Below, one piece after another: positions 110-44,738 of a stretch of DNA of 64,000 nt. The DNA comes from an uncultured Anaerotruncus sp. GTDB taxonomy: Bacteria; Bacillota; Clostridia; Oscillospirales; Ruminococcaceae. The position numbers and the translations under genes were made by a program. Under the pieces are notes generated by a model, which was not told the DNA's origin, did no database searches, and saw only the letters and a program-made list of their open reading frames with translations. Each line of letters begins with the position of its first letter. Positions within the stretch are counted from its first letter, which is position 1. Location: assembly GCA_904398655.1 (NCBI GenBank), contig CAJFPF010000011.1, positions 1 to 64,000 of the forward strand. Direction: 5' to 3'.

Positions 110-143
110 AGAGCCGCGGGACTTGTAAAAGTCCCGCGGCTCT
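110..143 (+). terminator. Hairpin, probable intrinsic terminator of the upstream gene
   Basis: AGAGCCGCGGGACTT-gtaa-AAGTCCCGCGGCTCT then TTAT. Confidence 0.6.
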
Positions 144-252
144 TATCATGCAAAAAGTTTCGACTGTTCCAGGTTGGCTTTGCGCGCCAAATGTGCTATC
201 ATGGACGGGACGGCAGAAAATGCCGCTGAATGATCCGAAAAGTGAGGGCAAT

Positions 253-1374: not shown

Positions 1375-1417
1375 AAACCGGAGTGGAGGCCACAATGTGG
1401 CCTCCACTCCGGTTTTT
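1373..1417. terminator. Bidirectional intrinsic terminator between convergent genes
   Basis: AAAAACCGGAGTGGAGGCCAC-aat-GTGGCCTCCACTCCGGTTTTT. Confidence 0.85.
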
Positions 1418-1435
1418 CGTAGAGGATTGAGGGAA

Positions 1436-1687
1436 TCACTGGGCAGGCTGCAATCTACCCAAAATCTGCTCCTGGAAAAATTGGCTGGCCGTCTCTGGGG
1501 AGACAGAACAGAGCTCTCCATCCACAAAGACGCAGACCCCCTCCTGGCAATGGCCGGTGCAGAAGGTGCCGGCCAGCTGGACCTGGTCCTCCAAACGGTG
1601 TTCCTTAATGGATTTTTGCAGCTCCTCCAGCACATAGTGGGAGCCCTTCACATGGCAGGAGCTGCCAAGGCAAACGGTGACGGTCAT
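1436..1687 (-). CDS. Thioredoxin-like [2Fe-2S] ferredoxin (NuoE-like domain)
   Basis: 83 aa, VCLGSSCHVKGS... and GTFCTGHCQEGVCVFVDGE cysteine pattern. Confidence 0.75.
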   Translation of the reverse strand: MTVTVCLGSSCHVKGSHYVLEELQKSIKEHRLEDQVQLAGTFCTGHCQEGVCVFVDGELCSVSPETASQFFQEQILGRLQPAQ

Positions 1688-1704
1688 TTTTTACACATCC
1701 TCCC

Positions 1705-1986
1705 TCATTTGGTGGCAGCCGCGCGCTCAATGGCGCGGTTGCGGAAAAACAGGCAGATATCGGTACAAACCATGATAATATTGGGGAAATAGAACCAGAA
1801 GGCCAGATTGTAGGTGTGGGTCATACATTTGGAGATGATTCCACAGACATAGCCGAAGGCGATAAAACACATAAACAGCAGGCTTTTTCCCTTGGTGGAA
1901 CGGGAACGGTAGGAGCGGATGATGGATAGGGGCCAGGAGATGCCAAAACAGAGAATCATCATCGTTTCAAAAATTTCTGCAAGCAT
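1705..1986 (-). CDS. Small 3-TM membrane protein, SemiSWEET/PQ-loop-like
   Basis: 93 aa hydrophobic; SWPLSIIRSYRSRSTKGKSLLF...GYVCGI...FYFPNIIMVCTDICLFFR pattern. Confidence 0.5.
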   Translation of the reverse strand: MLAEIFETMMILCFGISWPLSIIRSYRSRSTKGKSLLFMCFIAFGYVCGIISKCMTHTYNLAFWFYFPNIIMVCTDICLFFRNRAIERAAATK

Positions 1987-2021
1987 GGATTGACGTTACC
2001 TCCTCAAAATTCGGTCGCTCG

Positions 2022-3617
2022 TTATTTCACCCGGCGATAGTCAGGCAGCAGCTTGGGGGAGACCAGATCGCTGTGAATGCCGGCCTGTTCCAGCTGGCGG
2101 GCAAACGCATCCACGTGGGATAGGGTCAGCTGACCTTCCTGGACCGCTTGGGCCTTTGCGGCGGCGGATTTACCAGCCGTACGGCCAAAGACGATGATAT
2201 CCAGCAGAGAGTTGCCCATCAGACGGTTGCGCCCATGGATGCCTCCTACCGCCTCACCGGCTACAAACAGGTTTTCCACCCCGCTCTGGCAGTCCTTGGA
2301 GATATCGATGCCGCCATTCTGGTAGTGGAGGGTGGGGTAGACCAGGATGGGCTGTTTGCGGATGTCGATGTCATACTTGCCAAACATCCGCAGCATGGCC
2401 GGAATCCGACGCTCAATGGTGCCCTCGCCCCCCTTGCGCTCGATCATCGGGGTGTCCAGCCAAACACCCAATCCCTGGGAGGTGCGGACACCCTTGCCCC
2501 GGGTGGTGCACTCCCGGATAATGGAGGCCGCGGACACGTCCCGGGTCTCCAGGGGATGCATAAACGCTTCCCCGTCCACATTGATCAATTTGGCCCCCAG
2601 AGAGCGCACCTTTTCGGTGACCAGGGCTCCGAAGATCTGCTCGGGGAAGGCCGCTCCTGTAGGATGATACTGGAGGGTGTCGGGGTAGAGCAGCTTGGCT
2701 CCCGCCCGGTAGGCCAACACCAGGCCGTCGGCGGTGGCTCCATAGTGGTTGGAGGTGGGGAAGCCCTGGTAGTGCAGGCGTCCCGCGCCGCCGGTGGCAA
2801 TGACTACCGTTTTGGCCCGCGCCACCATCAGCTCCTGGGTTTCCATATTCATAAGCACTGCACCTGCGGCCCGGCCGTTTTCATCCAATACCAGCTCAAT
2901 GGCAGCGGTGAAGTCTACAACGGGGATCTGCCGGTTGAGCACCTCGTCCCGCAAGGTGCGCATGATCTCTGCACCGGAGTAATCTTTGGCAGCATGCATC
3001 CGTTTACGGGAGGTGCCGCCGCCGTGGGTGGTAATCATTGTGCCGTCCGGCTCCTTGTCGAACTCCACGCCCAAGTCGTTCAGCCAGGCGATGGCCTCTG
3101 GGGCCTCGGTGACCAGCTTATAGAGCAGCTCCGGCTTGGCTGCGAAGTGGCCGCCTCCAAAGGCGTCCAAATAGTGGATCGCGGGGCTGTCGTTGGGTTT
3201 GTCTGCGGCCTGGATGCCGCCCTCCGCCATCATGGTGTTGGCGTCCCCCATCCGCAGCTTGGTGACGATCATGACCTTGGCGCCGGCCTTGTCCGCCTCG
3301 ATGGCCGCGGAGGTTCCAGCGCCGCCGCCGCCGATAATCAATACGTCCACGTCATAGGCGGGATGTTCCAAGTCCACCTGAGCGGGGGCGATCCGGCTAT
3401 TGGCCTGGAGCAGAGCAGCCAACTCGGTGGGGACCTTCTCCCCTCTGTTGGGGCCCACCTGCAAAACCGCGAACTCCCCTTCTTTGTAATCGGGGTGATA
3501 GGTCTTGAGCAGGGTATCTTTTTCTTCGGCAGTCATCCGCCGGGGTTCCAGCTCCAGGTTTTTGGCCCGGGCGGCTTCCACCTTGCGGATAGATTCCATC
3601 ATCTCATTGGTATACAT
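2022..3617 (-). CDS. Fumarate reductase/succinate dehydrogenase-type flavoprotein subunit with N-terminal extension
   Basis: IIGGGGAGTSAAIEA, LQYHPTGA, LVTEKVRSLGAKLIN, TRDVSAASI, GEAVGGIHGRNRLMGNSLLD. Confidence 0.85.
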   Translation of the reverse strand: MYTNEMMESIRKVEAARAKNLELEPRRMTAEEKDTLLKTYHPDYKEGEFAVLQVGPNRGEKVPTELAALLQANSRIAPAQVDLEHPAYDVDVLIIGGGGAGTSAAIEADKAGAKVMIVTKLRMGDANTMMAEGGIQAADKPNDSPAIHYLDAFGGGHFAAKPELLYKLVTEAPEAIAWLNDLGVEFDKEPDGTMITTHGGGTSRKRMHAAKDYSGAEIMRTLRDEVLNRQIPVVDFTAAIELVLDENGRAAGAVLMNMETQELMVARAKTVVIATGGAGRLHYQGFPTSNHYGATADGLVLAYRAGAKLLYPDTLQYHPTGAAFPEQIFGALVTEKVRSLGAKLINVDGEAFMHPLETRDVSAASIIRECTTRGKGVRTSQGLGVWLDTPMIERKGGEGTIERRIPAMLRMFGKYDIDIRKQPILVYPTLHYQNGGIDISKDCQSGVENLFVAGEAVGGIHGRNRLMGNSLLDIIVFGRTAGKSAAAKAQAVQEGQLTLSHVDAFARQLEQAGIHSDLVSPKLLPDYRRVK

Positions 3618-3632
3618 GGTCGCGTCCCCTCC

Positions 3633-4328
3633 TTATTGCTCAATCTCGCGGTGGTTATAGAGCTCCTGCAGCTCCGCTAGAGGCTTCTGCATGAGCTCCT
3701 CCATCATCCCCTCAAAATCGCCGGCCTGGATCTCCTGGACCCGTTTTTCCAGATGGGCGGACTTGGGAGCCAGGTATTTTCCGTTGAGGCGGCGGGCCAG
3801 CATGGCCACCTGGGGATGGGAGATGCCAGCAGGGCAGCGGGAGGAACAGACGCCGCACATGACGCAGTCAAACGACTCCTCAGCACACTTTTCAAACTCC
3901 CCACGCTGGGCGTAGGCGATATACTGCATCACATTCAGATCCTGCGTGCAGCTCTTGGTGCAGGCATTACAACCGATACAGGCATAGATTTCAGGGTAGA
4001 GCTGCATCATAATCATCTGGGAGGGGGTCACCTTCTCAATGTCGTACACCTGCTTGACCACCGGGAAGAAGGGGAGCATGGCGATATACATGTTGTCCAC
4101 CACCTGGGTCTGGCAGGCCAGGCAAGCGTGCAGCTCACTATCCCCCTTCACCCGGTAGACGGTGGCACAGGCGCCGCAAAAGCCATTGCGGCAGCCGCAA
4201 CCACGCACCAGTTGGTAGCCCGCGTATTCAAATGCGCCCATGATGGTCAGGCTGGCGGGGACCTCATATTGCTTGCCCATCAGGAAGACATGAACCATAG
4301 TTTCCATTGCGCGACTCTCCTTTATCAA
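3633..4328 (-). CDS. Fumarate reductase-like iron-sulfur subunit (2Fe-2S plus two 4Fe-4S motifs)
   Basis: GCGCRNGFCGACA 2Fe-2S motif; CIGCNACTKSC and CVMCGVCSSRCP. Confidence 0.8.
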   Translation of the reverse strand: MIKESRAMETMVHVFLMGKQYEVPASLTIMGAFEYAGYQLVRGCGCRNGFCGACATVYRVKGDSELHACLACQTQVVDNMYIAMLPFFPVVKQVYDIEKVTPSQMIMMQLYPEIYACIGCNACTKSCTQDLNVMQYIAYAQRGEFEKCAEESFDCVMCGVCSSRCPAGISHPQVAMLARRLNGKYLAPKSAHLEKRVQEIQAGDFEGMMEELMQKPLAELQELYNHREIEQ

Positions 4329-5152
4329 TACTCATTGGGAAGCTCGTCCAGCTGGTCGAAGCGGAACACTGGCCCATCCTTGCAGACATATTTGCTGCCA
4401 ATGTTGCACCGCCCGCATTTTCCGACGCCGCATTTCATCCGTAATTCCATGGTGGTGTAGACCTGAGTCTCCGAGAAGCCCAGCTCCTTGAGCCCCTCCA
4501 GCGTAAATTTGATCATGATGGGCGGCCCACAGAGCAGCACCGTTTTGTTTAGATCCGGCTGCAGCTCCTTCACAAAGTTGGGCACAAATCCCACATGTCC
4601 ATCCCAGCCCTCCTGGGCCCGGTCGATGGTCAGGTTGACTTGGATACCCTCGTCCGCCATCCACTCGTCCAAAATCTCCTGGTAATCCACCAGGTCCTCT
4701 TTGGAGCGGGAACCATAGACGATCTGGATGCTGCCATAGTTCTGACGTTTATCCCGCACGTAGTTGATGACCGAGCGCAGGGGCGCCAAACCGATGCCAC
4801 CGGCGATGAATAGAAGGTCCTTCCCTTTCAGCGCCCCCTCCACCGGGAACCCATTTCCATAGGGGCCCCGGATGGTGATCTGCTGGCCCACATCCATAGC
4901 GTGGAGCCAGTTGGTGAGGCAGCCGCACTTTTTGATGCTAAATTCCATGAAATCCTCATTGGTGGGGGAGGAGGTGATGGAGAACATGGCCTCGCCCACA
5001 CCGGGGATGGAGAGCATCGCGCATTGGCCGGGCATATGTTCAAAGACCTTTTTGCCGTCCAGTCCGACCACCCGGAAGGTCTTGACGTCGGGCGTGTCGA
5101 TCCGGATGTCGGTCACTACGCCCAGTTTTGGGATCAAGGTTTCCGTGTTCAT
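4325..5152 (-). CDS. FAD/NAD(P)-binding oxidoreductase, FlxA-like
   Basis: GQCAMLSIPGVGEAMFSITSSP, GGIGLAPLRSVI, CGPPIMIKF, CGVGKCGRCN; located in an Hdr-Flx operon; start ATG at 5152. Confidence 0.75.
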   Translation of the reverse strand: MNTETLIPKLGVVTDIRIDTPDVKTFRVVGLDGKKVFEHMPGQCAMLSIPGVGEAMFSITSSPTNEDFMEFSIKKCGCLTNWLHAMDVGQQITIRGPYGNGFPVEGALKGKDLLFIAGGIGLAPLRSVINYVRDKRQNYGSIQIVYGSRSKEDLVDYQEILDEWMADEGIQVNLTIDRAQEGWDGHVGFVPNFVKELQPDLNKTVLLCGPPIMIKFTLEGLKELGFSETQVYTTMELRMKCGVGKCGRCNIGSKYVCKDGPVFRFDQLDELPNEY

Positions 5153-30062: not shown

Positions 30063-30092
30063 TTGACAGAAGGTAGGATGTCCCCCTAAAAT
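30063..30092 (+). promoter_or_regulatory. Putative sigma-A promoter of the 30.2-43.8 kb cluster
   Basis: TTGACA-N18-TAAAAT about 110 nt upstream of the first CDS. Confidence 0.55.
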
Positions 30093-30198: not shown

Positions 30199-31698
30199 GT
30201 GATGTGGGATGTGGTGATCGTTGGGGCTGGTGTCTGCGGGGCAGCGACTGCTCGGGCCCTTTCACGCTATCAACTGCGGATAGCGGTTTTGGAGAAGGGC
30301 AGCGATGTCTGCGCGGGTGCCAGCCGCGGTAACTCTGCTATGGTGCATGGCGGATTTGATCCAGAACCCGGAACCCTAAAGGCAAAATACAATGTGTTGG
30401 GCAATCGCATGTTTGACCGGCTCTGTGAAGAGCTCCAAGTTCCCTTTCAGAGAAGCGGGACCCTGATCCTGGCCACTTCCGAAGCGGATATGAAATCGGT
30501 GGAAGAGCTCCATCAGCGGGGGGAGCAAAATGGTGTTTCCACTGTAGTGATGGATCGGGAAGCCCTGTTACAGCGGTGGCCCACTATGGGCGAGGGCGCT
30601 GTGGGAGGCTTGTTCTGTCCCTCCGGCGGGATCGTCTGTCCCTATACGCTGGTCATTGCCATGTGCGAAAATGCAGCCCGCAACGGGGTTCAGTTCTATT
30701 TGGATACAGAAGTAACCAACATCTCCCCCTTGGAAGATGGGTGGCGGTTGACCTCCCAAGATGGGTCCACATTTGACACAAAGCTTGTGATCAACTGCGC
30801 GGGTACCCATGCCGATCGGCTCAACAATTTGGTCTCCACGGAGAAGTTTCGGATTCTCCCCCGCTTTGGCGCACACCTCATCATGGATCGGGAGTATATC
30901 AAATGGGTGGACACCACCATCACCCAAACCCCTACCAAACTGCCCACAGGCGGCCACACCAAGGGGATGGGGATCATGCCCTCTGCGGATGGGACGGTGA
31001 TTTTGGGCTGTGACAGTGTGGACTATACGGATCCGGACGATGTAGCAACCACCTCCCGCAGCATCAACGCCATTGTGGACTACTTCAAAACTTTCTGGAA
31101 ATATCTGCCCATCAGTGCGGTCTATCCAAACTTCCCTGTGGAGGGGGTCATCAACGCCTATGGAGGGCTGCGTCCCCATCCTGACCGGGATGATTATATC
31201 ATTGGGGAGGCGCCAGGAGCACCCGGTTTCCTAAATGCCGCCGGCATCGAATCTCCCGGCCTCACCGCGGGGCCGGCCATTGGCGAGCATATGGCGGAAT
31301 TGGTGGTGGAGAAGCTGCATCCCCAAAAGAAGGAGAACTATCTGCCCGGCCGGGAGATCTGCAAGCCCTTCCGGGAGATGGATGAGCAGGAACGGCGGGC
31401 GGCAATCCGTGAAAATCCCGACTATGCCAAGATTGTCTGCCGGTGTGAGCAGGTGACTGAGGCAGAAATCCGGGACGCCATCCGTCGGCCAGTGGGGGCC
31501 CGGAGTGTGAATGCAGTGAAGATGCGTACCCGAGCTGGCATGGGCCGCTGCCAAGGTGGATTCTGCCAGAGCCGTGTAGTGGAACTCCTCTGCGAGGAGT
31601 TGGGACTCACCCCGTTGGAGGTGACCCAAGCCGGAAAGGATTCCTATATTTTGCTGGGGGAGTCCTGCTCCCATCGTTTTGAGGAGGTGGCGCCATGA
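30199..31698 (+). CDS. NAD(P)/FAD-dependent oxidoreductase (GlpA/LhgO-like) with BFD-type [2Fe-2S] domain
   Basis: VVIVGAGVCGAATARALSRY; C-terminal IVCRCEQVTEAEI...RTRAGMGRCQGGFCQ. Confidence 0.85.
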   Translation: MMWDVVIVGAGVCGAATARALSRYQLRIAVLEKGSDVCAGASRGNSAMVHGGFDPEPGTLKAKYNVLGNRMFDRLCEELQVPFQRSGTLILATSEADMKSVEELHQRGEQNGVSTVVMDREALLQRWPTMGEGAVGGLFCPSGGIVCPYTLVIAMCENAARNGVQFYLDTEVTNISPLEDGWRLTSQDGSTFDTKLVINCAGTHADRLNNLVSTEKFRILPRFGAHLIMDREYIKWVDTTITQTPTKLPTGGHTKGMGIMPSADGTVILGCDSVDYTDPDDVATTSRSINAIVDYFKTFWKYLPISAVYPNFPVEGVINAYGGLRPHPDRDDYIIGEAPGAPGFLNAAGIESPGLTAGPAIGEHMAELVVEKLHPQKKENYLPGREICKPFREMDEQERRAAIRENPDYAKIVCRCEQVTEAEIRDAIRRPVGARSVNAVKMRTRAGMGRCQGGFCQSRVVELLCEELGLTPLEVTQAGKDSYILLGESCSHRFEEVAP

Positions 31699-32948
31699 GG
31701 CAGGTGGACATCTTGATTGTAGGCGGCGGAAGCGCCGGGATGGCCGCGGCGGCTGCGGCCCACGAACATGGGGCGAAAGACATCCTGATTCTGGAACGCT
31801 CCGACCGCCTGGGCGGGATCCTCTGCCAGTGTATCCACAATGGATTTGGGCTGCACCGCTATCAGGAGGAACTCACCGGACCGGAATATGCCCGGCGGAA
31901 CATTGACGTCATCCGAGAGAGAAAAATCCCCTACTCCCTCAATACCTTTGTGTTGGATATCACCCCGGAGAAGGTCGCCACCATCATGGACCCGGAACAT
32001 GGCCTCCAAAAGATCCAGGCCAAAGCCATCATCCTGGCGATGGGGTGCCGGGAACGCCCCCGAGGCGCTCTGATGATCCCGGGGACACGGCCCGCAGGCG
32101 TGATCACCGCAGGGGCGGCCCAGAAATATCTCAATTTGGAGGGCTATCTGCCAGGGAAACGAGTGGTCATTTTAGGTTCGGGGGATATCGGTCTCATTAT
32201 GGCCCGCCAGTTTGTTATGGAGGGGATCCAGGTCCAGGAGGTGGTGGAGCTGATGCCCTACTCCAGCGGTCTGACCCGGAACATCTCCCAGTGCCTCAAC
32301 GATTTCAACATCCCTCTGCGGTTTTCCAGTACCGTCATTGAGATTAAAGGGCAAAAGCGGGTATCCAGTGTGGTAGTGGCCCAGGTGGACGCCGACCGCA
32401 GGCCCATCCCCGGCACCGAGCGGGAGATCGCCTGCGATACATTGCTCATCTCTGCCGGCCTGATTCCGGAAAACGAGCTGAGTAAGGCCGCAGGCGTCCG
32501 GATGACCCCCTCCACCAAGGGGGCCGTGGTGGACGACCACCTTCAGACCTCCGTTCCTGGTATCTTTGCCTGCGGCAATGTGCTGCATGTCCACGATCTG
32601 GTGGACAATGTGAGTATGGAGAGCGAAGCGGTGGGCCGCAATGCTGCCCGGTATGTGTCTGGGCAGCTGGCGGACAGCGAATTTGCCGCCTGCATTCCAG
32701 TAGTAGAGGGGAGAGGTGTGGGCGGATTGGTCCCGCAATACATCTGCCGCACAGAGGAGCCAGAACCGCTGAAACTCATGTTCCGGCCCCGGGGCGTCTA
32801 TCAGAACGCTGCTATCTGTGTCCTTGCGGACGGCAGCTGTGTGGCCCGCAAAAAGTCCCTGGTGCTTACGCCTGGCGAGATGTGTGAGATCGAGCTGGAT
32901 CGCAAAATGGTAACAGACGCGATCCAGGTCTGTGTGGAGATTCAATGA
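31695..32948 (+). CDS. FAD-dependent pyridine nucleotide-disulfide family oxidoreductase
   Basis: ILIVGGGSAGMAAAAAAHEHG, ILAMGCRERPRGALMIPGTRPAGVITAGAAQ; ATGA-type overlap with previous gene. Confidence 0.85.
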   Translation: MRQVDILIVGGGSAGMAAAAAAHEHGAKDILILERSDRLGGILCQCIHNGFGLHRYQEELTGPEYARRNIDVIRERKIPYSLNTFVLDITPEKVATIMDPEHGLQKIQAKAIILAMGCRERPRGALMIPGTRPAGVITAGAAQKYLNLEGYLPGKRVVILGSGDIGLIMARQFVMEGIQVQEVVELMPYSSGLTRNISQCLNDFNIPLRFSSTVIEIKGQKRVSSVVVAQVDADRRPIPGTEREIACDTLLISAGLIPENELSKAAGVRMTPSTKGAVVDDHLQTSVPGIFACGNVLHVHDLVDNVSMESEAVGRNAARYVSGQLADSEFAACIPVVEGRGVGGLVPQYICRTEEPEPLKLMFRPRGVYQNAAICVLADGSCVARKKSLVLTPGEMCEIELDRKMVTDAIQVCVEIQ

Positions 32949-32976
32949 GACCACCTTTGGAAAGGAACGATCTGTG

Positions 32977-33333
32977 ATGGAAGAGAAGCGGTTCATCTGT
33001 ATCAACTGCCCGCTGGGCTGCCATTTGACCGTCCTGACAGAGGGCAGCCAGGTGCTCCAGGTGCAGGGGAACAGCTGCAAACGAGGGGAAACCTACGCCC
33101 GGCAGGAAGCGGTTGCCCCCAAAAGAGTACTCACCTGCCTGATGCGTGCCGGCAACCGGAAAATTCCCTTCAGTGTGAAAACAAGCCGTCCGGTTCCCAA
33201 GGAGCTGTTATTCCGCTGCGCTGACACCATCTATCGAACCCGGCCCGAGGCCCCCGTCGCTATGGGAGATGTGGTGATCCACAACCTCTGTGGAACGGGA
33301 GCGGATGTTTTAGCAACCCAGGACCTGCCTTGA
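32977..33333 (+). CDS. DUF1667 domain-containing protein
   Basis: FICINCPLGCHLTV...VQGNSCKRGETYARQEAVAPKRVLTCLMR. Confidence 0.85.
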   Translation: MEEKRFICINCPLGCHLTVLTEGSQVLQVQGNSCKRGETYARQEAVAPKRVLTCLMRAGNRKIPFSVKTSRPVPKELLFRCADTIYRTRPEAPVAMGDVVIHNLCGTGADVLATQDLP

Positions 33334-33432: not shown

Positions 33433-34503
33433 ATGCTTAGAAAGTTCAAAAAATCTGCGTCTCTGATTTTGGCCGTCTCCATGGCGGTTTCCCTGGCCGC
33501 CTGTGGTGGCGGGAGCACCAGTGGCGGAAGTGAAGCGCCAGCGGCTGCCTCTGGCGACGCCAGCTCCTTCACCCCCATCACCCTGCGGATGGGAAACCAA
33601 CACAATGCGGAATCTTTTGGCAACAAGCTGGACCAAGAGCTCTGCGACCGTATTGCGGAAGAGACCGAAGGCCGCGTCACGGTGGAGCTCTACTCAGATA
33701 GTGCGCTGGGTGACTACACCAACATGTTTGACGAATTGATGGTGGGCTCTCTGGACATGGCCCATATCTCTCCTGTGGAGTCCTATGACGCCCGTGTCTC
33801 CGGCACCATGCTGCCCTACCTGGCCTTCGATTATGACACCCTGCTGAAAGCCTATTCCGAGGGCTCCTTCCTCCACACCGAGATCAGCGACGCTTTGAAC
33901 AATCTGGGTATCCACCTGGGCGGAATCTTCTGTGAGGGCTTCAATGGCATCGGCGTCATGCAGGAACTGGAAAATCCCGCCACCCCCGGCGCTGAGAAGG
34001 GATGCATCGTCCGTTCTCCCATGCTGGACGTCTACAGCTTGGAGCTCCAGGATCTGGGCTTCCGCGTCTCCTCCCTGCCCTATTCCGACACCTATACCTC
34101 CATGCAGACAGGCGTTGTGGCCGGCCTGGCGGGATGCACCTCCCAGATGAACTATCTGGCCTTCCGCGACCTAATCACCCATTTCTATGATTACCGCTAC
34201 AACCAGGAGGCCACCATGATCCTCATCAGCAACCAAACCTGGGAAAAGCTGCTGCCCGAGGACCAGGAGACCATCTCCAACATCATCTCTGAAATCTGCG
34301 CCGAGGCCGCTGTCCAGGCGGAGGAAGTCTGCAATGAGTACATGGATATGCTCACCGAAATGGACATCAGCGTGGTCACCTTCACCGATGAGGAACTGAA
34401 TGCCTTCTCTGAGAGCTCCCGCGCCAACGTCTGGCCTCAACTGGCCGCCAACTACCCCGATGGCTGGCTGGATTCCTTGCTGACGGAGCTGGAAGCTGCC
34501 TGA
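33433..34503 (+). CDS. TRAP transporter substrate-binding protein (DctP family)
   Basis: Lipobox SLAACGGG; FGNKLDQELCDRIAEETEGRVTVELYSDSALGDYTNMFDELMVGSLDMAHIS. Confidence 0.88.
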   Translation: MLRKFKKSASLILAVSMAVSLAACGGGSTSGGSEAPAAASGDASSFTPITLRMGNQHNAESFGNKLDQELCDRIAEETEGRVTVELYSDSALGDYTNMFDELMVGSLDMAHISPVESYDARVSGTMLPYLAFDYDTLLKAYSEGSFLHTEISDALNNLGIHLGGIFCEGFNGIGVMQELENPATPGAEKGCIVRSPMLDVYSLELQDLGFRVSSLPYSDTYTSMQTGVVAGLAGCTSQMNYLAFRDLITHFYDYRYNQEATMILISNQTWEKLLPEDQETISNIISEICAEAAVQAEEVCNEYMDMLTEMDISVVTFTDEELNAFSESSRANVWPQLAANYPDGWLDSLLTELEAA

Positions 34504-34604
34504 TCCCAGATTGGAGATATCCTGAAATTGGACGGTAAAGACATACCTGGCGTCGCACTGTGCTCTCACGGCGCGGCGCCCTCAAAAAGAAAGGAAGGTA
34601 TGAG

Positions 34605-35117
34605 GTGAAACTACTGAAGAAGCTCGACGGCATGCTGGAATGGGTGCAGAACTGGATTCTGATCATCACCGGCACCGCCGTGGGTATCATGATCCTGGTC
34701 AACGCGGTATTCCGTCTGTTGCGGATCGACTGGTTCGGCTCGGAGGAGTTGACCCTGTTTGTGGCCTTCTGGCTCTATTTTATGGGTGCGGCCTGCGCGT
34801 CCCGGGAGAATACCCACATCAGTGCGGATATGCTCTCCCTGTTTTCCGACAGCCCTAAAGTTCGGGCGATTGCGGATATTGTAAAAAATGTGATCGGCGG
34901 CGCTATGAGCGCGCTATTCACCTACTGGTGTTTCAACTATGTGGTCTGGCAGGCCAATATGGGCGCAAAATCCGCTGTCTATAAGCTGCCGGTCATCATC
35001 GCCACCACCCCCATCCTCATCTGCTTTTTCCTATGGACACTCTATTTAATCCGCGACCTGGTCAATGCCATCAAGGTGCTCTCCGGGTCCGCCCCCAAGC
35101 CGGAAGGAGGAAACTGA
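34605..35117 (+). CDS. TRAP transporter small permease (DctQ family)
   Basis: 4-TM protein; SEELTLFVAFWLYFMGAACASRENTHISADML; GTG start inferred. Confidence 0.85.
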   Translation: MKLLKKLDGMLEWVQNWILIITGTAVGIMILVNAVFRLLRIDWFGSEELTLFVAFWLYFMGAACASRENTHISADMLSLFSDSPKVRAIADIVKNVIGGAMSALFTYWCFNYVVWQANMGAKSAVYKLPVIIATTPILICFFLWTLYLIRDLVNAIKVLSGSAPKPEGGN

Positions 35118-35118
35118 A

Positions 35119-36462
35119 ATGCTATTTATCCCCGCACTGTTGGCGTTGATCGTCACAATGGTCATCGGCGTTCCCGTTCCGCTGGCGTTTCTGGTCTCCT
35201 CCGTGGTGATCTGCTTTGGTAACGGCGCCGACCCCCAAATGCTTCTGATCAACGGCTATAACAAGATCAACACCATCCTGCTGCTCACCATTCCCCTATT
35301 CGTATTGGCTGGAGCCCTGATCAACCACGGCGGCCTGGGTGAGCGTCTGGTGGGCGCTGTGGAAAAGACAAAGCTTGGCAAGTCCAAAAGCGGCCTGGGC
35401 GTTGTGACCGTTGTGGCCTGCGCGGTGTTTGGAGCAGTATCCGGCTCCTCCTCTGCCACCGTGTCCTGCATCGGTTCCATCATGGCCCCCCGCCTGCGGG
35501 AGAACAATTACCCTGACGGCCTGATCGGTGCTCTGGTGGCCTCTTCCGGTGTTCTGGGTATTTTGATTCCGCCCTCCATGTTGATGATCCTGTTTGCTTG
35601 GGCCAGCAATACCTCCGTTTTGGGTTGTTTCGTGGCCACTGTAATCCCCGGCATCCTGTTGGTAATTTTGCTGAGTATCACCCAGACCTACCTGTATAAA
35701 AAAGGCACCGGCGGCGGCAATATCACTGACACGATGCTTGAGAATGCCCGCCAGCAGGAGGCCCTCAAGCAGCAGAAGGCCGCTGAAAAGGCTGCTAAGA
35801 AGCATAAAAAGGGCGATAGCGCCATCCCAGCCCTCATGATGCCCATCATCATCCTGGGGAGTATCTACACCGGCGTCCTGACCGCCACCGAAGCGGCGGC
35901 TCTCTCGGTGGTCTATGCCATCCCCATCGGCATCTTCTATTACAAACAGCTGGACTGGAAGACCTACCGTGACGCCATGATCGACGCGGGCAAGACCGCG
36001 GGTGTCATCATGTCCATGACGCTGACCGTTCAGATCCTCAGCCGCCTGTACATCACCGAGAATCTGCCGGACCTGATCCTGGGCTTCCTCACCTCCATCT
36101 CGGATAACAAGTATGTGATCCTGTTGATGATCAACCTGTTCATGGTGATCATGGGCATGCTCATGGACGACTGCTCCAACACCATCCTGTTGACCCCGAT
36201 CCTGCTGCCGGTCATGCAGGCGCTGGGCATCAGCACCCTGCATTTCGCGGCCATCCTGGGCGTAAACATCGGCATGGGCAACGTAACCCCGCCCACCGCG
36301 CCGCTGCTCTATCTCTCCGGCCGGATCACCGGTTCCCAGGTGAAAAATATGATCAAGCCCACCTTGATCCTCATCGCCTGCGCTTGGGCGCCCACCATCC
36401 TAATTACCACCTATTGGACCGGGTTTGCGGAGTTCCTGCCCCGCCTGTTGGGATATATGTAA
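35119..36462 (+). CDS. TRAP transporter large permease (DctM family)
   Basis: MLFIPALLALIVTMVIGVPVPLAFLVSS..., GAVSGSSSATVSCIGSIMAPRL. Confidence 0.9.
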   Translation: MLFIPALLALIVTMVIGVPVPLAFLVSSVVICFGNGADPQMLLINGYNKINTILLLTIPLFVLAGALINHGGLGERLVGAVEKTKLGKSKSGLGVVTVVACAVFGAVSGSSSATVSCIGSIMAPRLRENNYPDGLIGALVASSGVLGILIPPSMLMILFAWASNTSVLGCFVATVIPGILLVILLSITQTYLYKKGTGGGNITDTMLENARQQEALKQQKAAEKAAKKHKKGDSAIPALMMPIIILGSIYTGVLTATEAAALSVVYAIPIGIFYYKQLDWKTYRDAMIDAGKTAGVIMSMTLTVQILSRLYITENLPDLILGFLTSISDNKYVILLMINLFMVIMGMLMDDCSNTILLTPILLPVMQALGISTLHFAAILGVNIGMGNVTPPTAPLLYLSGRITGSQVKNMIKPTLILIACAWAPTILITTYWTGFAEFLPRLLGYM

Positions 36463-36480: not shown

Positions 36481-38073
36481 ATGCGCGAGTACAGCAGCAT
36501 TTTTAACCACGCCCTGGCACCCATTACGCCTGGCCCTTCCAGCTCGAACACCTGCGGACCGGTGCGCATCGGTTTGATCTGCCAGCAGCTTTTGGGGGAG
36601 GTCCCTGCCAAAGCGGTGGTGGAGTATTACAGCAAGGGCGCTTTCCCCACCACCCTGTACGGCATGCGCAGCGACATCGCCTTTATCAACGGCCTGCTGG
36701 GGAGGCAACAGAGCCATCCCCAGTTCAACCAGGCCTATGCGGAGGCAAAAAAAGAGGGGATGGACGTCTCCTTCGCCCAGGTGGACGACCTGACGGTGGG
36801 CGGCATGGAGACCGTCCGGATCCGTATGACCGCCCATAATGGCTTTCAACTGACCGTCATCGGGGAATCGGTAGGCGGCGGCGCCATTCGGATTCACTTT
36901 ATTGGCAGCTGTCCCATGAGCATCAGCGGCACCAGCTACGAGTTGGTGGCCGCCCTCCGGGAGCCCTCCCAGGAGAAGGCGGAGACGCTGGCCAGGGGAC
37001 TGGCGCCTCAGGTGGAACATCTGAACGACTGGGCCTGTTCTACCGGGGAGGACTCCTCCATTGTAGAGCTGAAAGCCTCTCAGGCGTTCCCCTCTGAATT
37101 TGTCCAGATGGTGGCCTCGAGGCCAGAGGTGCAGTGGGTCCGCACGGTGGATCCTGTCCATCCCATTGTGGCGGATGTTTCCCGCAAGCCCCCCTTTGAT
37201 TCCCCGGATGAAATGGTGGCCTATTGCAAGGCCCGTGGCTGTTCCACCGCCCGGGCTGCCATCGACTATGAGATGGCCATCAGCGGCTGGGATGAGCGGC
37301 AGGTCCAGGAGTATGGGGAGATGCTCCTGGGGATTATGCGGCGTTCCCGAGAGGGTGGGTTCAACCCCAACCTGGAGTTTGATGGGATCGTGACCCCCAA
37401 AGCGGCCCAACTGCGGGGCCGGGTCGGGCACGGGTCAATGCCCAGCTTGGGGGTCCTCAACGATGCCATCCCCAGCGCCTTGGGGATCATGGAGCACAGC
37501 AATGCGGCCGGGGAGATCGTCTGCGTCCCCACTGGCGGCTCCTCGGGGATTGTGCCAGGCCTGCTGCTTTCCGCCGCAGAACAGTTGAATGCCTCTCCGG
37601 ACGCCCTCTACGAGGCTATGATGGCCGCGGGGATCATCGGCGTGCTGATGATGGTGGACGGCAATGAGTTTGCCGGCGGCACCCACGGCTGCCAGGCAGA
37701 GGTGGCCTGCGGCACCGCTATGGCCGCCGCTGGATTGGTACAGCTGATGGGCGGAACCGCTCAACAGGCCTGTGATGCGGCCTCCATGGGGCTCCAGTGT
37801 TTCCTGGGCCTGATCTGTGACCCTGTGGCAGGACTGGTACAGGTCCCCTGCCTGGCCCGGAACATCGCGGGCGTGTCGGTGGCGGCCGCCTGCGCTGAGT
37901 CGGTTTGCGCCGGGTTCGAGGCGGTAATCCCGCTGGACGAAATGACTCGTATCATGGTCCGGGTAGGGACGGATATCACAAAAGAGCTGGGAATGTGTTG
38001 TAGCGGCTGCTGCATTACCCCCACAGGCCGCCGTCTAACCCAGGAGTTCAACCGGGCCCACGGTCGTGAATAG
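36481..38073 (+). CDS. Fused beta-alpha iron-sulfur L-serine dehydratase-like protein, divergent
   Basis: GPSSSNTCGPVRIG; HGCQAEVACGTAMAAAGL, CDPVAGLVQVPCLARN. Confidence 0.8.
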   Translation: MREYSSIFNHALAPITPGPSSSNTCGPVRIGLICQQLLGEVPAKAVVEYYSKGAFPTTLYGMRSDIAFINGLLGRQQSHPQFNQAYAEAKKEGMDVSFAQVDDLTVGGMETVRIRMTAHNGFQLTVIGESVGGGAIRIHFIGSCPMSISGTSYELVAALREPSQEKAETLARGLAPQVEHLNDWACSTGEDSSIVELKASQAFPSEFVQMVASRPEVQWVRTVDPVHPIVADVSRKPPFDSPDEMVAYCKARGCSTARAAIDYEMAISGWDERQVQEYGEMLLGIMRRSREGGFNPNLEFDGIVTPKAAQLRGRVGHGSMPSLGVLNDAIPSALGIMEHSNAAGEIVCVPTGGSSGIVPGLLLSAAEQLNASPDALYEAMMAAGIIGVLMMVDGNEFAGGTHGCQAEVACGTAMAAAGLVQLMGGTAQQACDAASMGLQCFLGLICDPVAGLVQVPCLARNIAGVSVAAACAESVCAGFEAVIPLDEMTRIMVRVGTDITKELGMCCSGCCITPTGRRLTQEFNRAHGRE

Positions 38074-38114: not shown

Positions 38115-39401
38115 ATGGTGAAGCTGACGGAATACGAACAAAAGATGCTGGATGGCGAATTTGGACGCTATAAACAGATCGCCATGGAGCATGTGGTGGA
38201 GTTTGCCAATGTGATGGGGGCCGAGGAGTTGGTCAAGATCTCTAAAGTCCACATCTGTGGGGCGGTTGCCCCCCTGGAATATGGCCAGTCGGACGACCTG
38301 GACGAGAGCTTCCGGCGCACTTATCTGTGGACCAAAGAGCCGGTGAAATTTGAGGGATACTCCCCGGAGGTCTACATTCAGACGGACGGTGGAGCGGTGG
38401 ATCAGTACGACCCCAAACCGATGTACCTCTCAGAGGAGCTGTTTCAGAAGAACCTGGATTGGCAGCTAAAATATGCTGAAAAGGGCGTCAGCATCGTGGG
38501 GTCCTGCGCCCCCTATTTAAATGGCTGGGTGCTCACTAAGGGCGAGACGTTTATGACCACCGAATCCAGCAATGTGCTCTTCTCCAACTCGGTATATGGA
38601 GCGGCGGGCAACGCCAATGGCGTGACCGCCTGCGGCTGGGCAGCTATCACAGGCAGGGGCCCTAAATGTGGGATGCACCTGCCGGAAAACCGGTTGGCGG
38701 CCATGGAAGTCCGGGTGGAGTGTCCCTGTGAAACTCCGCGGGATTGGGATATTCTGGGCTATTCCCTGGGCCGGTTGCTCATCAATTATAACAACGCCAT
38801 CCCCGTTTTGACCGGGAACTTCCACGATGTGGATGTCATCCGGCTGAAACGGATGTTTGCAGCCATCGCCACCACCAGCGGATTGGAGATGTGCCACATT
38901 GAGGGCATCACGCCCGAGGCTCCCACTAAGGAGATCGCCCTGGGCGGGAAAAAGGATTACCCTGTGTTACGAATCACCCAGGAGGATTACGACGAGTCGG
39001 TGCGCCGCCTATGCGACCCCGGCAGCGGCCCGGTACAGTTGATCAGCGTGGGCTGCCCCCATTACTCCCTCCAGGAGATCCGGGACGCAGCTGCCTATAT
39101 CAAGGGCAAAAAGGTCCATGAGGGTGTCCGGCTGATCTTTTGGACCAGCTGTTCCATCCGGGAGGCGGCGCGGATGTCCGGATATCTGGACACGATTGAG
39201 GCTGCCGGCGCAACCATCGGCACCAACGGATGCCCACTGGTCCAAGGCTTTGCCTGTTACGAGGGTGTCACCGGCATGGCGGTGGACGCGGCCAAACAGG
39301 CCCACTACAACCGCTCCTGGCTCAAAGGCGGAAAGATGTACTATGGCACCATGGAACAGTGTGTGGATGCTGCCGTTTCCGGCGTATGGGAGGAGAAGTG
39401 A
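38115..39401 (+). CDS. Aconitase X catalytic (large) subunit
   Basis: LTEYEQKMLDGEFG...; GSCAPYLNGWVLTKGETFMTTESSNVLFSNSVYGAAGNANG; NGCPLVQGF. Confidence 0.85.
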   Translation: MVKLTEYEQKMLDGEFGRYKQIAMEHVVEFANVMGAEELVKISKVHICGAVAPLEYGQSDDLDESFRRTYLWTKEPVKFEGYSPEVYIQTDGGAVDQYDPKPMYLSEELFQKNLDWQLKYAEKGVSIVGSCAPYLNGWVLTKGETFMTTESSNVLFSNSVYGAAGNANGVTACGWAAITGRGPKCGMHLPENRLAAMEVRVECPCETPRDWDILGYSLGRLLINYNNAIPVLTGNFHDVDVIRLKRMFAAIATTSGLEMCHIEGITPEAPTKEIALGGKKDYPVLRITQEDYDESVRRLCDPGSGPVQLISVGCPHYSLQEIRDAAAYIKGKKVHEGVRLIFWTSCSIREAARMSGYLDTIEAAGATIGTNGCPLVQGFACYEGVTGMAVDAAKQAHYNRSWLKGGKMYYGTMEQCVDAAVSGVWEEK

Positions 39402-39403
39402 CC

Positions 39404-39835
39404 ATGGGAAAGACGATTGTGTTGAAAGGTCGGCCGGCCTACCCGGGTGTGGCGGAAGGTTATGCCATGTGCTGCCCCAACAGCATCCAAGGCTGGGCTG
39501 GCGTGGAGGCGAAGACCGGTAAGATCATCGAGAAAGGCCATGTCCATGAAGGGGAGAGCTTTGATGGAAAAATCCTGGTGATCCCCACCAGCAAGGGCTC
39601 CTGCGGCTGGTCCGGCCTGTTCCAAGGCCCTCTGGATCTATCTGGGATTCGTCCTGCCGGCTGGGTGGTCAAATACGCCGACTCCAAAGTGGGTGTAGCA
39701 GCCGTCCTGGTGGGGCGCCCAATGGTGGCCGATTTTGAGGAGGACATCTTCCAGTACATCTCAGACAACGATTATGTGGTGGTAGACGGGAACGAGGGGA
39801 CCGTCACCATCACAAAACCAGACCCTGAGGACTAA
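39404..39835 (+). CDS. Aconitase X swivel (small, DUF126) subunit
   Basis: GKTIVLKGRPAYPGVAEGYAMCCPNSIQGWAGVEAKTGKIIEKGHVHEGESFDGKILVIPTSKGSCGWSG. Confidence 0.85.
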   Translation: MGKTIVLKGRPAYPGVAEGYAMCCPNSIQGWAGVEAKTGKIIEKGHVHEGESFDGKILVIPTSKGSCGWSGLFQGPLDLSGIRPAGWVVKYADSKVGVAAVLVGRPMVADFEEDIFQYISDNDYVVVDGNEGTVTITKPDPED

Positions 39836-39851: not shown

Positions 39852-40235
39852 ATGGCAAAAAAACAGGCGATTTCTCTATCTGGGGCAGGTTCCGGGCTCC
39901 CCTATACCCCCGCCATCCGTTGGGGGGATACGCTCTATGTCTCCGGACAGGTAGGGGACGCTCCGGACGGATCTGTCCCCGGCGATATCCAAAGCCAGAC
40001 CGCTCTGGCGATTGAGAATGCGAAGGCCCTAATTGAGGCCGCTGGCGGCAGCTTGGACAATGTGCTCATGTGCCGCTGCTTCCTCAAAAATAAAGAGGAT
40101 TTTGCAGGCATGAACGAGGCCTATGCCCGCTATTTTGGAAAGGACTCGATCCCAGCGCCTGCCCGTTACACGGTCATTGCTCCGCCTGTGGACGAGAAAT
40201 ATCTGGTGGAAATCGCGATGATTGTAGCCCTCTGA
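39852..40235 (+). CDS. RidA family (imine/enamine deaminase)
   Basis: GLPYTPAIRWGDTLYVSGQVG...NVLMCRCFLKNKEDFAGMNEAYARYFGKDSIPARYTV-like signature. Confidence 0.9.
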   Translation: MAKKQAISLSGAGSGLPYTPAIRWGDTLYVSGQVGDAPDGSVPGDIQSQTALAIENAKALIEAAGGSLDNVLMCRCFLKNKEDFAGMNEAYARYFGKDSIPAPARYTVIAPPVDEKYLVEIAMIVAL

Positions 40236-40294: not shown

Positions 40295-41425
40295 ATGTCC
40301 GCTGTATGCAACGCTGTCTTTCTGGTATTTGCTGTGCTGGGCGCAGCGGACTATCTTATGGACAACCGGTGGGGCCTGGGTGCTCAATTTGAACGAGGCC
40401 TGGGCTGTATGGGAAAGCTCATCATCGCTATGGCAGGTTTCATGGCATTGGCCCCGGTGCTGGGGGAACTTTTGGCTCCGGTGGCCACACCTCTTTTTCA
40501 ATCTGTCGGGGCCGACCCCTCCGCGTTGGCCGGACTGCTGCTGGCCAACGACTCCGGAGGGGCCGCCCTGGCAGAGGAATTGGCGTTGGACCCAATCGCC
40601 GGTGATTTCAACGGCTATTTTGTGGCCTCCATGATGGGGGGCGCGGTGATGTGCATGATCCCCATGACCATGTTGAGCACCGACCAGGCCTCCCGTACCC
40701 CAGCCATCTATGGCTTGATTATTGGGCTATTTTCCATCCCTTTTGGCTGCCTTTTGGGGGGAGCTTTAGCGGGCTACCCCTTGGGCACGGTTTTACAAAA
40801 TCTTCTCCCAACCGCTCTGCTGTCAGCGGCTCTATTTTTGGCGTTGGTCTTTTTTGGAAGATGGGTCATCCGTCCCTTTCAGATATTTGGAAAGCTGTTA
40901 ATGGCGATGAGCTTGACCGGCCTACTGTTGTTAACCGCTTGGGAACTGTTGGATGTGGAGCTGGTACCCCATTTGACGCCATTTTCTGAGATCATTCCAG
41001 TAATTGGGAACATCGCACTGGCTCTGAGCGGCGTATTCCCTCTGATGGCGGTGGTCTCCCGCCTGCTGTGCCGTCCTCTTCAGATGGCGGCCCAGCGGCT
41101 GAAAGTGCGGGAAGGGGACGTGACCGGCCTGTTGACCTCCGCGGTGAACATCTTCCCCACATTTGATATGCTCAACAAAATGACGCCCAAGGGCGTTCTC
41201 TTAAATACAGCTTTTATGGTGGGGGCCAACTGTATGTTGGGAGACCACTTTGCGTTTACCTCCCAGATGCGCCCGGTTTTGGTGTTGCCAGTGCTTTTGG
41301 CAAAGGCAGTTTCGGGATTTTTAGCACTGGCCGTCGCAAATTATCTGGCCCCCATTTTGCTAAAAGGCACAAAAAAACAACCAAATTCTGCGTCTTCCAC
41401 CTGCCAAAGCATCAAGAAGGAGTGA
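40295..41425 (+). CDS. EutH-family transporter
   Basis: LAPVLGELLAPVATPLFQSVGADPSALAGLLLANDSGGAALAEELA...SIPFGCLLGG. Confidence 0.85.
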   Translation: MSAVCNAVFLVFAVLGAADYLMDNRWGLGAQFERGLGCMGKLIIAMAGFMALAPVLGELLAPVATPLFQSVGADPSALAGLLLANDSGGAALAEELALDPIAGDFNGYFVASMMGGAVMCMIPMTMLSTDQASRTPAIYGLIIGLFSIPFGCLLGGALAGYPLGTVLQNLLPTALLSAALFLALVFFGRWVIRPFQIFGKLLMAMSLTGLLLLTAWELLDVELVPHLTPFSEIIPVIGNIALALSGVFPLMAVVSRLLCRPLQMAAQRLKVREGDVTGLLTSAVNIFPTFDMLNKMTPKGVLLNTAFMVGANCMLGDHFAFTSQMRPVLVLPVLLAKAVSGFLALAVANYLAPILLKGTKKQPNSASSTCQSIKKE

Positions 41426-41432: not shown

Positions 41433-42104
41433 ATGGTTTCGAAAATTATCATCATGTTGACCCATAACGATCGAACGGTTCCAAACGCTCTGGAAACATT
41501 TGCCTCCTGCAAGGATCTGCCCGTCGATTTTTGGGGGTTCAAAGATGTGGGCCTGGAACGGGAAAAGATGGCCCAACTGATTGCGGCTATGAAGGCGGCA
41601 GGGAAGACCACCTTCCTGGAGGTGGTGACCTATTCGGAAGAGGAGTGCATGGCCGGAGCGAAAACCGCTGTAGAACTGGGCTTCGATTACCTGATGGGGA
41701 CGCTCTTCTTTGACAGCGTCTATGCCTATTTGCAGGAGCACCAGGTGAAATATCTGCCCTTCTGCGGCACAGTGACCGGCAGCCCCAGCGTCCTGTCGGG
41801 AAGCTTTGAGGAGATCATCAACGATGCCAAATCCATGCTGGACAAGGGGGTCTATGGGATTGATCTGCTGGCCTTCCGCCATCAGCAGGGGGCCGAGCTG
41901 GCGGAGGCCTATTGTTCCGCCATTAAGTCCCCAGTGGTGATTGCTGGCAGCATCAACAGCAGGGAGCGAATCGATTTTATTGACCGGATCAAACCTTGGG
42001 CGTTCACCATGGGGTCGGCGCTGTTTACGGAAAATTTTGCTCCTGGAGAGGGCTTCCGCAAAAACCTTGAAGCGGTTATCGACCATATGAACAGCATCCA
42101 GTGA
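41433..42104 (+). CDS. TIM-barrel protein of uncertain function (phosphate-binding barrel; GlpP/HisA/QPRT-like fold suspected)
   Basis: 223 aa with barrel-like repeats; TTFLEVVTYSEEEC, SPVVIAGSINSRERIDFI. Confidence 0.5.
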   Translation: MVSKIIIMLTHNDRTVPNALETFASCKDLPVDFWGFKDVGLEREKMAQLIAAMKAAGKTTFLEVVTYSEEECMAGAKTAVELGFDYLMGTLFFDSVYAYLQEHQVKYLPFCGTVTGSPSVLSGSFEEIINDAKSMLDKGVYGIDLLAFRHQQGAELAEAYCSAIKSPVVIAGSINSRERIDFIDRIKPWAFTMGSALFTENFAPGEGFRKNLEAVIDHMNSIQ

Positions 42105-42214
42105 GGAAGAGGACAGATTGCTTTCAGGAACAGTGGCATCCCTTTTGAAAAAGGGTTGCCATCCAGGCTGGGAGTCGCGGATGCTCCCAGCCTTTACTTT
42201 TTACGGAGGTCAAT

Positions 42215-43765
42215 ATGGCGGAATTGATACTGGCAATTGATATTGGAACCACCTCGCTCAAAACAGCGGTGTTTACTTTGGAGGGGCGGAAGGTGGCTTC
42301 GGCAATTATGGAGTACTCCTTGTTGACGCCCAAGCTAAACATTGTGGAGTCTCCCTGTGGGATTTATATGGAGTCTGTGCGCGCCTGCCTGGCAACCATG
42401 GAACAGCTGGAGGGCCTCCATCTCCAGGAGATTGCAACCATTGGGTTCTCTGTTCAAAGCGAAACACTGCTGTTTTTGGATGGAGACGCCCGGCCGGTGC
42501 GCAATGCCATCGTTTGGATGGACAACCGGGCGGGGGAACAGGCGGAGCGGCTCAAAGAACGGTTTGGGGACGAGTTATGCTACCAGGTCACAGGCCAGGT
42601 GAGCTTTGAGGCATGTTGGCCCGCTGCAAAGGTCATGTGGGTGCGGGAAAATGAACCGGAGGTTTGGAGCCGGGTCCGGCATATCCTGCTGCTGGAGGAT
42701 TACATGCTCTATCTGTTTACCGGCCGGTTCGTCTCCGAATGCTCTTTACTCAGTTCCACCGAGTATTGGGACATCCGCACCAAGGAGTACTGGCCGGAGA
42801 TGCTGGAATATGTGGGGATTGATCCTGCCTGGCTCCCGCAAGTGATCGAGCCGGGGGAGCTGGTAGGGGCTATCTTGCCAGAGGTTGCGAAGGATTTGGG
42901 GCTCTCCACGCAGGTCCAAGTCAGCTCCGGCTGTATGGACCAGGTGGCTGCCGCAGTGGGTGTGGGGAACATCTACCCAGGTTTCTTTTCGGAAAATATT
43001 GGGGCGTCATTGGCGGTCTGCGCCCCTACGAAAACATTGACCTATGACCCCAACCGCCGGATGCCGGTGCACTATTTTGCCATGCCGGACACCTATATGA
43101 TGCACACCTTCACGACCGGAGGGATGTGCTTGCGGTGGTTTCGGGACATGTTCTGCCGCAGTGAGATTGAAATCCAGGACAGCGCCGGGCTGGACGCTTA
43201 CTATCTGATGGATCTGGAGGCGGCTCAGGTGCCTCCAGGCTCGGATGGGCTTTTGGCGCTGCCCCATCTGCAGGGCGCCATGGCTCCCGATGTAAACTTG
43301 AACGCAAAGGCAGTCTTCTATGGCGCGACTTTAAAACATACCAAAGCCCATTTTATCCGCAGCATCATGGAGAGTTTGGGATACATCATCTGCCGGAATA
43401 TTGAGACCGTCTCGGAGATGGGGTTAAAGATCAGCCGGATCCGCACCATGGGCGGAGGCTCCAAATCCGACATCTGGAACCAAATTAAGGCGGATATCAC
43501 CGGGAGAACATTGGAGATTACCGGCTGCTCTCAGGATGCCGCATGCCTAGGCGCGGCCATCCTGGCGGGGATTGCGGTGGGGGCCTTTGAAAATGTGGAG
43601 GCCGCCGTGGCCTCCATGGTGCGGGTGGAACAGTGCTACCGACCCCATCTGGAGATCCACCAGCGCTATATGGAGCAGTATGAGAAATATAAGATTCTCT
43701 TTTCCTCCCTCTCCCCACTGTATCAGTTGGACGCTCAACCCCGAAGTGGGCAGAACATTTTTTGA
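42215..43765 (+). CDS. FGGY family carbohydrate kinase
   Basis: ILAIDIGTTSLKTAVF, AIVWMDNRA, MGGGSKSDIWNQIKADITGRTLEI. Confidence 0.88.
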   Translation: MAELILAIDIGTTSLKTAVFTLEGRKVASAIMEYSLLTPKLNIVESPCGIYMESVRACLATMEQLEGLHLQEIATIGFSVQSETLLFLDGDARPVRNAIVWMDNRAGEQAERLKERFGDELCYQVTGQVSFEACWPAAKVMWVRENEPEVWSRVRHILLLEDYMLYLFTGRFVSECSLLSSTEYWDIRTKEYWPEMLEYVGIDPAWLPQVIEPGELVGAILPEVAKDLGLSTQVQVSSGCMDQVAAAVGVGNIYPGFFSENIGASLAVCAPTKTLTYDPNRRMPVHYFAMPDTYMMHTFTTGGMCLRWFRDMFCRSEIEIQDSAGLDAYYLMDLEAAQVPPGSDGLLALPHLQGAMAPDVNLNAKAVFYGATLKHTKAHFIRSIMESLGYIICRNIETVSEMGLKISRIRTMGGGSKSDIWNQIKADITGRTLEITGCSQDAACLGAAILAGIAVGAFENVEAAVASMVRVEQCYRPHLEIHQRYMEQYEKYKILFSSLSPLYQLDAQPRSGQNIF

Positions 43766-43812: not shown

Positions 43813-43855
43813 AATAACCCGGCAAAACGCTTGGGAGGCGTTTTGCCGGGTTATT
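43813..43855. terminator. Bidirectional terminator between FGGY kinase and DeoR regulator
   Basis: AATAACCCGGCAAAACGC-ttgggag-GCGTTTTGCCGGGTTATT. Confidence 0.8.
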
Positions 43856-44738
43856 CTAACGGTTCTGGATCACAAAAGATCAACTGGCATCCATGCCGCT
43901 GCAGCTGCCGGACGAACTGTTTATCTTTAAAGTGGTTGGTAACAATGTAGTTTGCCTCCGACAAGGGCATCAGGGGATAGACGCTGTTCCGCCCCATCTT
44001 GGAACTGTCTACGAGGATGAACACCTGTCTGGCGGCCTGGGCCATCTGGCGCTCCACCTTTCCAATCAGAATGTTGTCAGACCAAAATCCCTGCTCCAAC
44101 TCGATACCGTCCACCCCAATGAATGCTTTGTCCACCGTGGTCTCCGAAAAGGTCTTAACGGCGTTGGGGCCGACAATACACCCGCTGCGCTGGCTTAAAA
44201 TACCAGCGCAGATCTGTACCTCAATATTTTGGTTGGCAATCAGCGCGTTGGCAGCCGTCAAAGAATCGGTAATTACCACCGAGCGCTTCAAATCGTGAAG
44301 GCAGTTGCAAAATTCCAAAACAGTGGAGCCGCCCGCCACAGCGATCCGCTCGCCATCCTTGACATACTTGCGGGCACAGGCCGCGATTTGACGTTTTTGA
44401 TCCACATTGGTCAAAAGCTTTTGGGTCAGCAGTACGTCCTTGTTGGCGTCCACACTGATTGCCCCTCCGTAGGTGCGGATCAAAAGGCCCTGATGCTCCA
44501 TATCCGCCAACAATTTCCTGGCAGTGGAGGGCGCAATGTGAAGGTATTGGCTCACATCCGCTGTGGTAACACGAAAACGTGTATTCAGTAAAAATAGGAT
44601 ATTACTGATTCGCTCGTCGTTGTTTTCTATTGCGCCCAAAGCGGACCCCCCTCCCAATTGCCTTGCCTCACCCACTGCGCTTGCGGTCAACATAGGTGCT
44701 GGCGACTGAGCAAGGGTGTTTCGACTGCCGAATTTCAT
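43851..44738 (-). CDS. DeoR/GlpR family transcriptional regulator
   Basis: ISNILFLLNTRFRVTTADVSQYLHIAPSTARKLLADMEHQGLLIRTYGGAI; DeoRC domain AVAGGSTVLEF. Confidence 0.85.
   Translation of the reverse strand: MKFGSRNTLAQSPAPMLTASAVGEARQLGGGSALGAIENNDERISNILFLLNTRFRVTTADVSQYLHIAPSTARKLLADMEHQGLLIRTYGGAISVDANKDVLLTQKLLTNVDQKRQIAACARKYVKDGERIAVAGGSTVLEFCNCLHDLKRSVVITDSLTAANALIANQNIEVQICAGILSQRSGCIVGPNAVKTFSETTVDKAFIGVDGIELEQGFWSDNILIGKVERQMAQAARQVFILVDSSKMGRNSVYPLMPLSEANYIVTNHFKDKQFVRQLQRHGCQLIFCDPEPLE

Follow-up and report, generated by a model that had tools for sequence, protein, structure and literature searches.

A fused serine-dehydratase-like [4Fe-4S] enzyme with methionine at the catalytic-base position, encoded beside a TRAP transporter and aconitase X in an uncultured Anaerotruncus sp.

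The [4Fe-4S] L-serine dehydratases (SdaAA-SdaAB) are represented here by the Legionella enzyme LpLSD (4RQO), whose positions we give in 4RQO chain numbering. In this numbering the motif GPSSSHT contains His19 and GHGTD contains His61, and the cluster ligands are cysteines 343, 385 and 396. PMC12647591, citing the LpLSD structure paper (Thoden 2014), describes His61 as the likely base for removal of the C-alpha proton and the H61A variant as inactive. The sister family CyuA (M. maripaludis, 9fsl and 9fyi), which belongs to the same superfamily with the same Fe-S Lewis-acid chemistry, is a precedent for a changed site, as its His61 position is replaced by a Cys/Glu dyad and its substrate has changed (PMC12647591). 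Two-subunit type II aconitase X (AcnX) enzymes include the C3LHyp dehydratase AtAcnX and the mevalonate-5-phosphate dehydratase TkAcnX, and types IIc-f, according to PMC8184944, carry the landmark residues of neither known function. Our literature searches found no description of the clade with Met at the base position that is reported below, or of its operon.

The window analyzed here is a stretch of 64,000 nucleotides in contig C11 of a 2.4 Mb draft genome of an uncultured Anaerotruncus sp. Its operon consists of twelve genes on one strand, the seventh of which encodes the fused enzyme; a promoter-like site (30063) precedes them and a hairpin (42165) follows them.

30063..30092, +, promoter-like TTGACA-18-TAAAAT (11/12) upstream of the first operon gene; a consensus match only, the count of promoter-like sites being not above that in shuffles
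30199..31698, +, DAO + Fer2_BFD flavoenzyme (GlpA-like), from profile matches
31695..32948, +, FAD/NAD(P) oxidoreductase, from a profile match
32932..33333, +, DUF1667 protein, from a profile match
33433..34503, +, TRAP solute-binding protein DctP
34560..35117, +, TRAP small permease DctQ
35113..36462, +, TRAP large permease DctM, ending 18 nt before the next gene
36481..38073, +, fused serine-dehydratase-like (SDH-like) [4Fe-4S] enzyme (beta-ACT-alpha), 530 aa, Met at the catalytic-base position
38115..39401, +, aconitase X large subunit (type II)
39404..39835, +, aconitase X small (swivel) subunit
39852..40235, +, RidA-family imine/enamine deaminase
40295..41425, +, EutH-family permease
41433..42104, +, TIM-barrel protein without a Pfam or NCBIfam match, most similar in its model to KDPG/KHG aldolases
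42165..42193, +, terminator-like hairpin (11 pairs) followed by a T-rich tail
42215..43765, +, FGGY carbohydrate kinase, beyond the terminator-like hairpin
43851..44738, -, DeoR-family regulator

The SDH-like gene (36481-38073) starts with ATG and has AGGAGG close 5' of it. A preliminary description of this DNA had called its product a fused enzyme, and indeed an sda_beta and an sda_alpha part with an ACT-like stretch between them lie in one open reading frame. Pfam SDH_alpha (PF03313) matches residues 255-503 (E 2.9e-50, 171.8 bits, cut-off 26.4) and SDH_beta (PF03315) matches residues 14-87 weakly (E 1.9e-5, 25.5 bits against a cut-off of 26), while the NCBIfam models sda_beta and sda_alpha cover residues 4-151 and 243-528, both below cut-off. 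Every L-serine ammonia-lyase cut-off is missed (TIGR00718/719/720: 175.1 against 243.2, 71.1 against 161.2 and 145.4 against 345.1); as a control, the split SdaAA and SdaAB of the same genome pass the curated cut-offs with 347.3 and 204.2. No CyuA profile was among the Pfam and NCBIfam matches of the protein. In the AlphaFold model (pLDDT 72.8), residues 153-223 between the beta and alpha parts fold as beta-alpha-beta-beta-alpha-beta and are predicted to be ACT-like. The window enzyme resembles L-serine dehydratase in domain content, in the three cluster cysteines, the GPSSS loop, CDPV and PTxGS, but differs from it by the fusion of beta and alpha parts with an ACT-like domain.

In a structure search with this model, the Legionella enzyme 4RQO was the best Foldseek match (E 1.3e-12), followed by phosphoglycerate dehydrogenase (ASB and ACT domains) and then by CyuA, to which the enzyme shows about 10% identity and a weak structure match (E about 1e-4). 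It is in the active-site loops that the model has low confidence (pLDDT below 50 at residues 14-22, 56-62, 338-353, 392-402 and 499-530), so that the replacement base cannot be placed. Residue by residue, the comparison with LpLSD gave the following.

36526..36564, +, residues 16-28, loop TPGPSSSNTCGPV (canonical MIGPSSSHTAGA), with Asn23 for LpLSD His19
36661..36675, +, residues 61-65, GMRSD (canonical GHGTD), with Met62 for LpLSD His61, the catalytic base according to PMC12647591
36799..36813, +, residues 107-111, GGMET (canonical xHPNT)
37687..37701, +, residues 403-407, GCQAE with cluster ligand Cys404
37816..37854, +, residues 446-458, CDPVAGLVQVPCL with cluster ligands Cys446 and Cys457
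37993..38013, +, residues 505-511, MCCSGCC in place of the canonical RETxGGLA segment

The cluster cysteines, described beforehand as retained (GCQAEV, CDPV, PCLARN), do align with those of LpLSD (Cys404, Cys446 and Cys457 with C343, C385 and C396), and GPSSSNT, GMRSD and PTGGSSG are present as quoted. The motif changes had been taken to mean altered substrate contacts; the changes are real, but the His of GHGTD is the reported base and not merely a contact, which makes this change more serious than that of GPSSSHT. The proton-abstraction step must therefore differ from that of LpLSD too. Beyond these two motifs we found HPNT changed to GGMET and RETxGGLA to MCCSGCCI. The alignment shows no Cys/Glu pair like that of CyuA at the Met62 position, where the loop model is unreliable. 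As a reference we used 134 columns that are near-invariant in 16 canonical split enzymes, of which 80 are kept and 54 changed in the SDH-like protein. The changed columns include all three His (23, 62 and 108), Asn110, Glu505 and Thr506, all of which are kept in the single-chain enzymes too; the cluster cysteines are kept.

An alternative reading is that the protein has remained a dehydratase of L-serine (or L-threonine), with a different base and with serine supplied through the TRAP transporter. It retains the fold, the cluster and most of its alpha domain, and RidA, encoded in the operon, usually acts on the products of serine/threonine dehydratases and is also found beside canonical split enzymes at the loci L095 and L120. 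However, the equivalent of His61 is lost, a loss that kills LpLSD, further near-invariant His, Asn, Glu and Thr residues are lost with it, and a canonical enzyme already exists in the genome: SdaAB/AA are encoded on contig C142 and a separate CyuA on contig C84, and therefore serine and cysteine are already covered. We consider this reading rather unlikely. That the substrate is one other than L-serine, as proposed in the preliminary description, is the best-supported reading, judged from the motif losses, the conservation over seven genomes described below, the TRAP/AcnX/RidA operon and the separate serine and cysteine enzymes.

Six further orthologs with 60-74% identity (L035 to L040) were found among 84,980 species and form with the window copy a set of seven sequences; the nearest named relative is L035 from an uncultured Oscillibacter. 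N23, M62, S64, D65, E110, G352 and the cluster cysteines are present in all seven, as is His402, which precedes the cluster ligand Cys404, and at the base position Met62 of all seven orthologs stands against His in all canonical rows. The new signature is neither chance nor a single-genome oddity. It is rare nevertheless: the window genome is the only one with the enzyme among 394 genomes of its order (E 1e-150), and among 399 genomes of the phylum there is one further relative, L136, with 40% identity and the motifs GPSSSNT and GMKSD. A scan of viral contigs gave one partial relative. One could take the lost catalytic His as a sign that the homologue has degenerated or become regulatory and no longer catalyzes a reaction. 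But the protein has its full length and is strongly conserved over the seven genomes, its cluster cysteines and new signature are invariant, and its gene lies inside a transport and catabolism operon, so that we regard this as very unlikely.

In a phylogenetic tree of 35 proteins the 17 fused proteins form one side, apart from the canonical enzymes (support 100/99), and the ten fused proteins with Met at the base position form one clade (support 100/99). Fused relatives (L136, L138, L141, L144 and WP_147840390.1) have the architecture of the window enzyme and vary in the base residue, which is His in L140 and L141, Gln in L137, L142, L143 and L144, and Met in the window group and in L136, L138 and L139. 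At least three changes of this residue are needed over the tree, in which the placing of the Gln forms is less sure because of the long branches L034 and L144.

DctM lies directly 5' of the SDH-like gene at six of the seven loci (the window and five orthologs). Five of these six have the full set of DctP, DctQ and DctM (the window, L035, L036, L037 and L040); the sixth, L039, starts inside DctQ and shows DctQ-DctM, and the remaining locus L038 has no TRAP genes. The more distant L138 (34% identity, GMSTD) is also located 3' of DctPQM. Around the canonical genes, by contrast, a search of about 60 loci found neither DctM nor DctQ within 1.5 kb. AcnX is present at two of the seven loci (the window and L035), RidA at three (the window, L035 and L037), and EutH among the orthologs at L035 and L040. 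At L120, in another genome, EutH-like and RidA matches lie within 1.5 kb of a canonical split serine dehydratase, and EutH and RidA are therefore not specific to the fused clade. The window DctP is only distantly similar to solved binding proteins, so that the substrate cannot be read from it, and as no ortholog of it was found in the other sampled genomes of the family, no alternative DctP context was found either. L035 and L036 encode orthologs of the TIM-barrel protein (41433-42104), whose model has a pLDDT of 93. The flavoenzymes and the FGGY kinase had raised the idea of a hydroxyproline or polyol pathway, which was dropped, as several loci are without these genes and the kinase is located beyond the terminator-like site.

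The linked AcnX (38115-39835) is alike to AtAcnX and TkAcnX as a two-subunit type II enzyme, and keeps the equivalents of the catalytic (base) Ser70 and of Lys530 and Tyr534 as well as the three type II cysteines. It differs from AtAcnX at the amine ligands Thr72 and Asp203, which are Gly and Cys, and it scores below the curated cut-off (195.7 against 700). Function as a C3LHyp dehydratase was rejected because of the lost amine-ligand signature, and from its residues the enzyme is probably of uncharacterized specificity. The presence of this other Fe-S hydro-lyase-type enzyme in the operon, together with the resemblance of the catalytic domain in the superfamily to the folds of the cofactor-free iminodisuccinate epimerase and of cis-aconitate decarboxylase (PMC12647591), could point to an isomerase, epimerase or hydratase on the same Fe-S fold instead of a lyase. 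The strictly kept cluster cysteines and the recurring RidA fit the beta-elimination of an amino compound, and we find such a non-lyase function improbable.

The genome encodes a second copy of the module. On contig C41 (L041, 5578-12692) the order is DctP-DctQ-DctM-AcnX large-AcnX small-fused enzyme-RidA, preceded by a DUF1904 gene. This fused enzyme is 31% identical to the window enzyme and has GQGAQ for GHGTD, with Gln at the base position, and RCT for RET. The two diverged copies, each without the base His, suggest that the combination of TRAP transporter, AcnX, fused enzyme and RidA is a real pathway unit whose copies handle different substrates. A third AcnX large-subunit gene on contig C118 (L085, 13256-14502) is split over two frames and followed by a small-subunit gene; it reflects a frameshift, a pseudogene or an assembly error.

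Taken from sequence and gene context, the window enzyme is probably a [4Fe-4S] lyase of the serine-dehydratase superfamily that has been re-specialized away from L-serine and acts on a carboxylate imported by the TRAP transporter; the sister family CyuA is a precedent for a change of base and of substrate. Counting against this are the limited occurrence of AcnX (2/7 loci) and RidA (3/7) and the base His kept in L140 and L141. As the most economical guess for the substrate we suggest a carboxylate with a beta leaving group. The imported compound would probably be an amino acid with a beta substituent, or a hydroxy acid formed from such an amino acid. It would bind the open iron of the cluster via its leaving group, and the alpha proton would be taken by a base other than His61, for which His402 and the Cys residues of the CCxGCC segment are candidates. 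The leaving group would then depart in a beta-elimination at the cluster and RidA, where its gene is present, would hydrolyze the enamine or imine product. The linked AcnX would probably perform a related or preceding step on a hydroxy acid.

The relative L136, with Met at the base position, bears on the choice of substrate, as its fused gene lies (locus 3-4829) among genes for a PLP enzyme of the D-serine dehydratase/D-threonine aldolase type, a homologue of octopine dehydrogenase and a regulator that senses diacids. The substrate of the enzyme could accordingly be a beta-hydroxy amino acid that is bulkier or has the D configuration, of the 3-hydroxyaspartate or D-threonine type for example, and the base would then lie on its opposite face. 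This is one short locus, however, and no such genes are found beside the window copy, so that we hold this to be unlikely; it is a narrower form of the re-specialized lyase and not its opposite.

More tentatively, and with somewhat less than even confidence, we propose that the clade with Met at the base position forms a functional class of its own, the third after SdaA and CyuA. Its members would differ from both in base and substrate, and would work with TRAP transporters and an uncharacterized type II AcnX in an undescribed catabolic pathway of gut bacteria that is represented here by two diverged copies. With this clade one could test directly how base and substrate change in an Fe-S beta-elimination site, and the operon would give a handle on an uncharacterized group of type II aconitase X. 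There is also a consequence for annotation: the window group would receive the label L-serine ammonia-lyase although it is without the residue that PMC12647591 reports as essential for that reaction, and such labels on fused proteins mislead metabolic models of gut bacteria. An example of such labelling is the Serratia nevei plasmid protein WP_147840390.1, which was matched by sequence, is not among the 35 proteins of the tree and is annotated only as 'L-serine ammonia-lyase'. On this plasmid (NZ_CP149941.1; L149, 7989-9560) the fused SDH-like gene overlaps a gene for a 365-aa protein without a Pfam match. The fused enzymes with Gln at the base position at L142 (5877-6845) and L143 (10498-11484) adjoin genes of the ornithine-cyclodeaminase family, a context unlike that of the TRAP-linked enzymes.
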